Part shown: positions 25,139 to 32,534 of the stretch, piece by piece
Layout of the letters: every line of letters begins with the position of its first letter
Position numbering within the stretch: position 1 is the stretch's first letter
Assembly: GCA_019115225.1 (NCBI GenBank)
Contig: DXEA01000088.1
Location: 1 to 32,534 of the forward strand
Direction: 5' to 3'
From: Candidatus Evtepia faecigallinarum
GTDB lineage: Bacteria > Bacillota > Clostridia > Oscillospirales > Oscillospiraceae
DNA length: 32,534 bases
The notes under the pieces: model-generated
Databases searched by the model: none
Told to the model about the DNA's origin: nothing
Seen by the model: the letters and a program-made list of their open reading frames with translations, nothing else
Program-made: the position numbers and the translations under genes

Positions 25139-26317
25139 TTATCCTGCCAGGGTCTGCTTCATGATGGCCAGGCCCTGGTCGATCTCGTCCTTGGTGATGA
25201 CCAGGGGGGGCAGCAGGCGCAGCCGGGAGCCGGCGGTCAGGCAGAGCAGGCCGTTGTCGATGAGCAGGGCGGCCAGCTCCTTGTTGGTGCGCCCTCCCTT
25301 CACGTCGATGCCCAGCATGAGGCCCATGCCCACGATCTCCCCCAGCTGGGGGCAGCCCAGGGCCCGGATGCCTTCTCGCAGGTAGGCCCCCTTCTCCTGG
25401 ACCTGGGTGAGGAAGTCCTGGTCGATGGTCTCCAGCACGGCAAGGCCCGCAGCGGTGGAGACGGGGTTGGCCCCGAAGGTGGAGCCGTGGGTGCCGGGGG
25501 TGAGGACCGTGGCGCATTTCTCGTTGGTGAGGATGCCCCCCAGGGGCAGGCCCCCGGCGATCCCCTTGGCGAAGGAGACCACGTCGGGCTGGATGCCAAA
25601 CTGCTGGAAGGCGAAGAGACTGCCCGTGCGGCCGATGCCCGTCTGAACCTCGTCCACCAGCAGCAGCCAGTCTTTCTCCTTGCACAGGTCGGCAAGGCCC
25701 TGGACCATGGCTTTGTCCAGGGGGTTCAGGCCGCCCTCGCCCTGGATGAGTTCCACCATGACACCGCACACGTCGTCCCCGGCCTGGGCCTGGATGCTCT
25801 CCAGGGTGGGGTCAGCGTAGCGGAAGGCCTCGTTGAAGGGGAAGAAGTAGTTGTGGTAGCTGTCCTGGCCGGTGGCGGTGAGGGTGGTGATGGTGCGGCC
25901 GTGGAAGGAGCGGTTGAGGGTGAGGATGGTGCTTCTCCCCTTGCCGTACTTGTCAAAGCTGTACTTCCGGGCCACCTTGATCATGGCCTCGTTGGACTCG
26001 GCGCCGGAGTTGCCAAAGAAGACCTTGGACATGCCGCTGCGGGTACACAGCTCCCGGGCCAGCAGCGCCCCCGGCTGGGTGTAGAAGAGGTTGGAAATGT
26101 GCCCCAGCTTGGCGATCTGAGCCGTGATGGCGGCGATCCATTGGGGGTTGGCGTAGCCCAGGGAATTGACCCCGATGCCGCTGGTAAAGTCGATGTACTT
26201 TCGCCCGGACAGACTGTACAGAGTCGCCCCCTCCCCGTGGTCAATATCCACCGGGAAGCGCCCATAGGTGTGCATGACATAGGTCTCGTCCATCGCTTTC
26301 AGTTCTTCAAACGTCAC
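25139..26317 (-). CDS. argD: Acetylornithine aminotransferase
   Basis: YIDFTSGIGVNSLGYANPQW...SFHGRTITTLTATGQ...LLLVDEVQTGIGRTGSLFAFQ...LAKGIAGGLPLGG; GTG start preceded by aaaggag. Confidence 0.96.
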   Translation of the reverse strand: MTFEELKAMDETYVMHTYGRFPVDIDHGEGATLYSLSGRKYIDFTSGIGVNSLGYANPQWIAAITAQIAKLGHISNLFYTQPGALLARELCTRSGMSKVFFGNSGAESNEAMIKVARKYSFDKYGKGRSTILTLNRSFHGRTITTLTATGQDSYHNYFFPFNEAFRYADPTLESIQAQAGDDVCGVMVELIQGEGGLNPLDKAMVQGLADLCKEKDWLLLVDEVQTGIGRTGSLFAFQQFGIQPDVVSFAKGIAGGLPLGGILTNEKCATVLTPGTHGSTFGANPVSTAAGLAVLETIDQDFLTQVQEKGAYLREGIRALGCPQLGEIVGMGLMLGIDVKGGRTNKELAALLIDNGLLCLTAGSRLRLLPPLVITKDEIDQGLAIMKQTLAG

Positions 26318-26416
26318 GGCTCTCACTCCTTTTTCCAAATCAATGTGTGCTTACTGGTATCTGGTATGGTTCTTTCCTGTCCCATGAGCGAACAAAACCC
26401 CTGCCGCCGCAGCGGC

Positions 26417-26609
26417 AAAAAAGCCTCGCAGAGTTTTCCCGTCCGCAGACGGGAAAATAAATTCCAATGAATTTTTTCGCCGGCTCCGCCGGCGAAAAAA
26501 TACTTCTCAGCCGCAAGTGTGAACCATGGCCGCTACGCGGCCATGGTTTGCGCGCAGTCGGCTGCACCCCCCCAATTTTTGAAGCCCAGCGCAGCGGGTT
26601 CAAAAATTC
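26417..26609 (-). repeat. Multi-hairpin intergenic repeat, copy A (argB-argD gap)
   Basis: Shares order, spacing and stems with 31196-31370; ends directly at the argB stop codon. Confidence 0.85.
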
Positions 26610-27470
26610 TCACTCCCAGATCATCGTACCGATACCCTGGTGAGAGAGCATTTCGGTGAGGATGGAGTGGGGGATGCGGCCGTCGAGAATGTGGGTGCGG
26701 TGGACGCCGTTTTCCAGGGCGCTCACACAGCACTGGATCTTGGGGATCATCCCGCCCCCGATCACCCCGCTGGCCAGCAGGGAGGGGATCTCCTCCAGCC
26801 GGATCTGGCGGATGAGGGTGCTCTCATCCTTGGGGTCCCGCAGCACGCCCCGCACGTCGGTGAGCAGGATGAGCTTCTCGGCCCCCAGGGAGACCGCCAG
26901 CTCCGCCGCTGCCGTGTCGGCGTTGATGTTGTAGGCGGTGTCGTTGTCGATGCCCAGGGCCACCGTGGAGACCACGGGGATATACCCGCAGGTCAGCGCG
27001 TCGTTGACCACCTGGGGGGCCACCTTGACGATCTTGCCCACCAGCCCGTATTTCTCGTCCAGCTTTTTCGCCTGGAACAGGGCCCCGTCCAGGCCGCACA
27101 GGCCGATGGCTCTGCCGCCCAGGTTGTTGATGATGGAGACCAGGTGCTTGTTGACCTTGCCGCACAGCACCTGCTGGACAATGTCCATGGTCTCCTCGTC
27201 GGTGTAGCGCAGGCCGTCCACAAACCGGGACTGCTTGCCGATCTTCTCCAGCATGTGGCCGATCTCCGGCCCGCCGCCGTGGACCATGACCACCCGGACG
27301 CCCACCAGGTGCAGGAGGATGATGTCGCTGATGACCGCCCCCCGCAGCTCTTCAGAGATCATGGCGTTGCCGCCGTACTTGATGACCACGGTCTTGCCAT
27401 AGTACTTTTGAATGTAGGGCAGCGCCTCCACCAGGACGGTGGAGCGCTCCATATAATCGTGTTTATCCAT
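26610..27470 (-). CDS. argB: Acetylglutamate kinase
   Basis: ALPYIQKYYGKTVVIKYGGNAMISEELR...VVMVHGGGPEIGHMLEKIG...GGMIPKIQCCVSALENGVHRTHILDGR. Confidence 0.97.
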   Translation of the reverse strand: MDKHDYMERSTVLVEALPYIQKYYGKTVVIKYGGNAMISEELRGAVISDIILLHLVGVRVVMVHGGGPEIGHMLEKIGKQSRFVDGLRYTDEETMDIVQQVLCGKVNKHLVSIINNLGGRAIGLCGLDGALFQAKKLDEKYGLVGKIVKVAPQVVNDALTCGYIPVVSTVALGIDNDTAYNINADTAAAELAVSLGAEKLILLTDVRGVLRDPKDESTLIRQIRLEEIPSLLASGVIGGGMIPKIQCCVSALENGVHRTHILDGRIPHSILTEMLSHQGIGTMIWE

Positions 27471-31078: not shown

Positions 31079-31195
31079 AAGCATGTTCCTTTCCTATAGA
31101 ACGGCGCAGAGCAGGACCCAACGATCCTGCCCCCGCCATAGTTTTCCTGTCATACAGACTTCCCGGCCATCCCCCAAACACCAGGGGCGCAGCCC

Positions 31196-31370
31196 AAAAG
31201 CCTCGCAGAGTTTCCCGCCCCGCAGGGCGGGAAATCAAATCCAATCCATTTTTTCACCGGCTCCGCCGGTGAAAAAATTCTTCTCAGTCCGGGAGTGCCT
31301 GGCCCCGCCAGGCGCGGTTCGGACTGCAATCCCCAAATTTTGAAGCCCAGCGCAGCGGGTTCAAAATTTC
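31196..31370 (-). repeat. Multi-hairpin intergenic repeat, copy B (argG-argH gap)
   Basis: Same ordered hairpins as copy A with compensatory substitutions. Confidence 0.85.
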
Positions 31371-31376
31371 ACGCTC

Positions 31377-32534
31377 TCAAAGTTTCTTCTGTTCTCTCAG
31401 CGCCTGAACGGTGTCGGGCAGACCCCAGAGGTTGATGAAGCCGGTGGCGTCATCCTGGTTGTAGTCGCTCTCCTCAAAGGTGACCAGCTTTTCCGAGTAC
31501 AGGCTCTCGGGAGAGGTGACGGAGGAGGTGATGATGTTGCCCTTGTACAGCTTCAGCTTCACGGTGCCGGTGACGTGCTTCTGGGTGTCGATGGCAAAGG
31601 CGGTCAGGGCCTCCCGCAGGGGGGTGAACCACTTGCCGTTGTACAGCAGGTCGGCCCAGTCGATGGCCAGCTTCTGCTTCATGTGCTTGGTGTCCTTGTC
31701 CAGGGTGATCATCTCCAGCACCTCGTGGGCCCGGTAGAGGATGGTGCCGCCGGGGGTCTCATACACGCCGCGGTCCTTCATGCCCACCAGCCGGTTCTCT
31801 ACGATGTCCAGCAGGCCGATGCCGTTTTCGCCGCCCAGCTTGTTCAGGCCCTCGATGATCTTGGAGGCCTTCATCTTCTCGCCGTTGAGGGCCACGGGCA
31901 CGCCCTTTTCAAAGTCCAGGGTCACATAGGTGGCCTCGTCAGGGGCCTTGAAGGGGGAGACGCCCATCTCCAAAAAGCCGGGCTTGTCGTACTGGGGCTC
32001 GTTGGCGGGGTCCTCCAGGTCCAGACCCTCGTGGGAGAGGTGCCACAGGTTCTTGTCCTTGGAGTAGTTGGTCTCGCGGCTGATCTTCAGGGGCACGTTG
32101 TGGGCCTCAGCGTAGTCGATCTCCTCGTCCCGGCCCTTGATGTCCCACTCCCGCCAGGGGGCGATGATGGTCATATCCGGGGCGAACCGCTTGATGGCCA
32201 GCTCGAACCGCACCTGGTCGTTGCCCTTGCCGGTGCAGCCGTGGGCGATGGCGTCGGCGCCCTCCGCCTTGGCGATCTCCACCAGCTTCTTGGCGATGAT
32301 GGGCCGGGCGAAGGCGGTGCCCAGCAGATACTGCTCGTAGCTGGCGCCCATTTTCAGGGAGGGGATGATGACGTCATCCACCATCTCGTCGGTGAGGTCG
32401 GCGATGTACAGCTTGCTGGCGCCGGTCTTGATGGCCTTTTCCTCCAGGCCCTCCAGCTCGTCGTCCTGGCCCACATCGCCGGACACGGCGATGATCTCGG
32501 GATCATTGTAGTTCTCCTTCAGCCAGGGGATGAT
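31377..32534 (-). CDS. argG: Argininosuccinate synthase (N-terminus beyond window edge)
   Basis: [47 protein letters not shown]...[15 protein letters not shown]; frame open through position 32534. Confidence 0.97.

Follow-up and report, generated by a model that had tools for sequence, protein, structure and literature searches.

IS1272, a member of the IS1182 family, is reported to target stem-loops and terminators by structure rather than by sequence, and its insertion replaces or partly deletes the stem-loop without duplication (PMC5678879, PMC4923244). A route by which the whole stem-loop would be duplicated has been drawn as pathway b in Fig. 13 of PMC5678879. Bacterial MITEs, on the other hand, are short, non-coding and multi-copy, and share terminal inverted repeats (TIRs) and target duplications with full-length insertion sequences (PMC10969869), while the BOX elements of Streptococcus pneumoniae are intergenic repeats with stem-loops (PMC3049150).

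The repeat family described here resembles each of these systems in part. With IS1272 and TnSha1 of staphylococci it has in common the transposase family and the stem-loop or terminator targets, but there the stem-loop is lost without duplication, whereas here it is duplicated whole, and the elements are non-coding and about 200 bp long. It differs from the described MITEs in its conserved and covarying interior of at least four stems, and in that the target is a terminator hairpin, duplicated as a whole. The likeness to BOX elements is one of type and implies no relation in sequence. We conclude that the copy lying between argB and argD (copy A) belongs to a non-autonomous, MITE-like family, whose TIR-bearing members were probably inserted into intrinsic terminators by a DDE transposase of the IS1182 family. 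The block is thus best seen as a parasitic piece of DNA, and hardly as an RNA specific to arginine genes. An earlier description of the family was not found in an open-access library, where absence is no proof; the searches there led to the IS1272 work and MITE reviews only.

The window, i.e., the whole stretch of 32,534 nucleotides analysed, contains the following features.

402–485 (region 392–490), plus strand: partial element copy C, with the core only, immediately upstream of obgE
25139–26338, minus strand: argD, class-III aminotransferase (Aminotran_3)
26398–26421, minus strand: terminator-like hairpin next to but outside the element, on the side of the argB transcript
26417–26609, plus strand: element copy A, subfamily I (the plus orientation is the one in which AAAAAAGCCTCGCAGAG precedes and stem 4 comes last)
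26425–26433, plus strand: mini-hairpin CTC-GCA-GAG of 3 bp (GTC/GAC, ATC/GAT and TTC/GAA elsewhere in the family)
26434–26457, plus strand: stem 1 of 10 bp with loop CGCA, TTTTCCCGTC-CGCA-GACGGGAAAA
26471–26501, plus strand: stem 2 of 14 bp with loop TCC, ATTTTTTCGCCGGC-TCC-GCCGGCGAAAAAAT (other copies have an ACATGCG-type loop)
26502–26508, plus strand: conserved unpaired ACTTCTC
26508–26564, plus strand: compound stem 3, with outer CAGCCG (26508–26513) and CGGCTG (26559–26564) and internal loop CAAGTGTG / TGCGCGCAG
26522–26548, plus strand: inner 12-bp stem of stem 3, AACCATGGCCGC-TAC-GCGGCCATGGTT
26574–26608, plus strand: stem 4, AATTTTTGAA-GCCCAGCGCAGCGGG-TTCAAAAATT, the outer end abutting the argB stop
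26610–27470, minus strand: argB, amino acid kinase (AA_kinase)
31189–31379, plus strand: element copy B (L028), between the genes for argininosuccinate synthase and lyase, with its core at 31199–31285 and stem 4 at 31335–31369

The original prediction had described ordered hairpins at 26417–26609 and a further one, TGCCGC-CGCA-GCGGCA, outside the block; all those named are present where it placed them, the latter at about 26400–26415. The mini-hairpin at 26425–26433 had escaped it, and copy C is likewise an addition to it. Stem 4 stops one base short of the argB stop codon (26610–26612). The TGCCGC hairpin is followed by TTTTGTT on the minus strand and is the sole terminator-like site of the argB-argD gap, though one such site against 0.7 expected is near chance. 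Both CGCA loops of copy A do read as C(UGCG)G on the minus strand, as had been pointed out. These UNCG-type loops are real in copy A, but in many other copies the stem 1 loops differ from CGCA. The conservation of ACTTCTC is partly due to the selection of hits, because CTTCTC sat in one search pattern.

Copy A folds far better than expected from its composition, with z = -9.5 as plus-strand DNA and z = -5.9 as minus-strand RNA (200 dinucleotide shuffles in each case, none as good). For the covariation analysis, 29 copies of the host's own genome were aligned, for which RNAalifold predicts 45 pairs. Across these pairs 98.2% of the cells are paired, and 27 pairs carry changes on both sides; in stem 1 (helix 6) this holds for 8 of the 10 pairs. 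Compensatory cells number 192, compared with 62 (sd 6.5) in shuffles and 7–38 in slid controls, with phylogeny and inter-copy exchange unmodelled; since copies often exchange entire stems, 192 is not a count of independent events. The excess over shuffles supports the claim of a structured repeat.

In the 2.3-Mb host genome (G000), 65 matches were obtained by DNA search and about 44 cores by a covariance model built on the left 86 positions. The element is about 200 bp long, multi-copy and without a transposase gene, as a MITE should be. Its roughly 44 copies adjoin unrelated genes, such as obgE and ssrA, and most lie away from arg genes. The stem 4 side usually faces a gene 3' end, often a few bases off, according to gene calls from codon-usage scores, which miss some genes; longest-ORF calls are unreliable and wrong even for copy A, because this GC-rich genome has long antisense ORFs. 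The site of copy B is also occupied in G009. Besides copy C, copies just upstream of obgE occur in other genomes (L119, L169), pointing either to a site shared since long ago or to a target used repeatedly. In addition, extra copies of the last module are found in the family. They recall BOX elements, which are modular in make-up, though we know of no terminator duplication in BOX.

Beyond the host, scanning 85,462 named genomes for the pattern gave at least 118 stretches, and the matches listed all come from records whose titles name Oscillospiraceae, Ruminococcaceae, Eubacteriales/Clostridia or member genera, among them Sporobacter, Papillibacter, Flavonifractor and Pseudoflavonifractor. In an order-wide draw the pattern occurs in 14 of 247 genomes (families f1, f7 and once f3), and the reversed pattern is absent from the matches listed for these 247; in a class-wide draw the covariance model matches 2 of 292 genomes, both in the host's family. 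The repeat family is one of Oscillospiraceae and a few neighbouring families. The further copies anticipated in the host and its relatives thus exist. No Rfam family matches the element at the gathering score or at permissive thresholds, the best weak matches reaching 22–27 bits against cut-offs of 46–50, and a tRNA is the only match in the window; at these thresholds the block is not covered by Rfam, a point which the original prediction had asked to be checked.

The mobile members of the wider family bear TIRs of about 13 bp, TCAGnCTGTCAAAAAAG. Their core is bounded by inverted repeats, with TCAGnCTGTCAAAAAAGC on the left and TTTTTTGACAGTCTGA on the right, or variants of these, and the element is flanked by two direct copies of one local terminator hairpin, which is different at each locus. 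Such whole-hairpin direct repeats, about 20–36 bp long, flank 44 of the 103 copies outside the host genus, counting left-right flank matches that score above every mismatched-pair control. In 40 of 45 duplicated hairpins the stem is perfect over 7 bp or more (median 12), and in 37 of the 45 the outer edge carries a run of A or of T, compared with 7% of control stretches. Outer runs of this kind are typical of bidirectional terminators. The 45 include those of a second subfamily in the host genome (L308, L309). At locus L295 of Flavonifractor sp. An82 the gene is followed by terminator, element and terminator; in the relatives' empty sites L296, L299, L301 and L306 a single terminator follows this gene.

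IS1182-family elements (NF033551) are present in 16 of 60 relatives and in 10 of 19 element-bearing genomes, and several element-bearing genomes have no IS1182 match. Two of these autonomous elements, L229 (Flavonifractor An10) and L237, encode proteins that match DDE transposase domains. Their ends, CAGGCTGTCGAAAAAG and TCAGCTTGTCAAAAAAC, resemble those of the short elements, and each has a duplicated hairpin on its two sides, 35 bp long for L229 and 30 bp long for L237. As ends of the same kind occur in L226, L227, L228 and L179, the family at large shares its TIRs with six IS1182 elements (L226–L229, L237, L179) and its type of target duplication with L229 and L237. Matching ends were not found on an IS1182 element of the host genome, where L193 terminates in GGGTCTGTTGACAAAGT and those of L181 could not be placed. 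L182 and L193 are IS1182 elements with other ends (GGGGCTGTTGACAAA and GGGTCTGTTGACAAAGT, respectively) that lie in interrupted inverted repeats, which looks closer to the mode of IS1272, which replaces the inverted repeat; they were not counted as support, and both insertion modes may exist within one bacterial group. The comparison and the empty sites provide evidence for the duplication of a whole stem-loop, which had been drawn for the IS1182 family and not seen for IS1272 (PMC5678879, PMC4923244).

We propose that an IS1182-family DDE transposase, acting in trans, would insert the TIR-bearing short elements into intrinsic terminators. Cleavage would presumably be staggered, at both feet of the terminator stem-loop, and subsequent gap repair would leave one whole terminator hairpin on each side. 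Subfamily I copies are now stable at gene 3' ends, with their stems kept paired by compensatory change, either through selection for pairing, through gene conversion between copies, or through both. If so, the 3' ends of genes in this common group of gut bacteria bear many copies of a repeat whose every insertion duplicates the host terminator, and the gene keeps a terminator on either side of the parasite.

Subfamily I, to which copy A belongs, does not bear these marks itself. No TIR was found at either end of its copies in the host genome, copy A included, and no hairpin duplication in any of 22 host copies or of 11 copies from genus relatives; a search with strict criteria for hairpins flanking the host copies gave almost none. 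The membership of copy A therefore rests on homology, that is, on the shared core, which matches the family with 84.5 bits. Since subfamily I has lost or never had TIRs and duplication, we infer the origin of copy A by such insertion from its relatives. Its site at the argB 3' end is occupied in G000, G009, G011, G012, G002 and G001, partly so in G010, and empty in G015, G006, G014, G003 and G008. At least 9 host sites are common to sister species. Of 23 orthologous pairs, 18 show higher similarity in the element than at the flanks' least conserved codon position, an estimate biased low by construction. Compensatory changes in place are seen between some orthologs, such as L288/L293 and L281/L293. 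On the other hand, copy A is 94% identical to L002 at an unrelated locus of its own genome but 75–80% identical to its G009 ortholog, where the flanks are 87% identical, so exchange between copies or re-insertion has also occurred.

With this distribution in mind, the reading toward which the original prediction leaned, an RNA inside the arg transcript serving as attenuator or other cis-regulatory element of the operon, is very unlikely. Copies A and B do both lie among arg genes, and the argB site is kept across species. However, the approximately 44 copies beside unrelated genes, the absence of the element from argB in the five genomes listed above and the lack of such an Rfam family all argue against it, as do the IS1182-type ends and duplications and a G.T bias antisense to argB-argD, so this part of the prediction is not supported. 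Still less probable is a repeat of REP/BIME type with a REP-associated Y1 transposase (RAYT) as its mover. Many intergenic palindromes near stop codons would fit it, but TIRs and hairpin duplications are foreign to REPs, and Y1_Tnp (PF01797) was not found in the host genome, which is 93% complete, while control genomes were positive. The family also carries a caution: covariation and richness in hairpins alone can make a mobile element resemble a regulatory RNA.

A plain MITE needs no conserved interior, and an interior conserved and paired across genera, with a G.T bias on one strand, points to an extra function beyond that of a plain MITE. A functional structured RNA made from the element's plus strand and spread by transposition, serving propagation or a host 3'-end function, would account for the pairs changed on both sides, the excess of compensatory cells and the in-place changes between orthologs. 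It would also explain why, in 176 distinct copies, G.T mispairs exceed A.C on the plus strand by 157 to 22. As this count is inflated by one shared stem 2 loop type, we counted instead each context once and kept to those 4 bp or more away from the loop, and obtained 40 versus 13 (p = 3e-4), the contexts being not fully independent; the split is clear in the wider set (29 versus 6) and not clear in genus relatives (11 versus 8). The excess holds for either direction of the host gene, with 11 versus 2 where the minus strand is transcribed, although outside the host genome this orientation split rests on crude longest-ORF gene calls. The plus strand of copy A is antisense to argB-argD, so the excess speaks against selection acting on the strand of the arg transcript. 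As for an RNA read from the minus (arg) strand, a first count in the host genome gave no strand bias, and the larger set favours the plus strand. Nevertheless, strand-biased mutation or stable single-stranded DNA predicts the same bias, which leaves open plus-strand RNA, single-stranded DNA and strand-biased mutation; a promoter-like site was not found in the copy A region, and the host genome has one G.T in about 1070 pairs. For the family as a whole, we regard the RNA reading as unlikely.

The near absence of mismatches in the host genome fits with stems being kept perfect not by selection but through template switching, which corrects palindromes, or through gene conversion among copies, and so does the closeness of copy A to L002 rather than to its ortholog. 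Such correction is a serious candidate, at rather less than even chances, since alone it explains neither the plus-strand G.T bias nor the conserved loops, and some orthologous copies change no faster than their flanks. More speculatively, and in our view improbably, the plus-strand fold, as RNA or single-stranded DNA, could be required for the IS1182-driven movement into terminators; if true, structure would be what a family of DDE transposons recognises in cargo and target alike. The terminator-targeting, MITE-like element, which we prefer for the origin of the family, offers in its strand-biased G.T mispairs a testable case for an RNA or single-stranded DNA role.

Several other elements were met in the course of the survey. 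A second, unrelated element of about 210 bp has the same ends (TGAGnCTGTCAAAAAA...TTTTTTGAC) and occurs at L137 (4523–4730) and L076 (6544–6745). At L137 it adjoins the first element, and the same terminator hairpin (aacaggccaggaatttttcctggcctgtt) occurs three times. In two species, copies lie directly upstream of the tmRNA gene ssrA (L311 in C105 of the host genome, L050 in G002), and both have a long extra sequence in the stem 4 loop. Finally, L077, L095, L124, L144, L139 and L150 have long inserts in the region of stem 3, in which another hairpin, AGCCCAGCG..GCGGGT, and a stretch resembling GGAAAGGAG occur.
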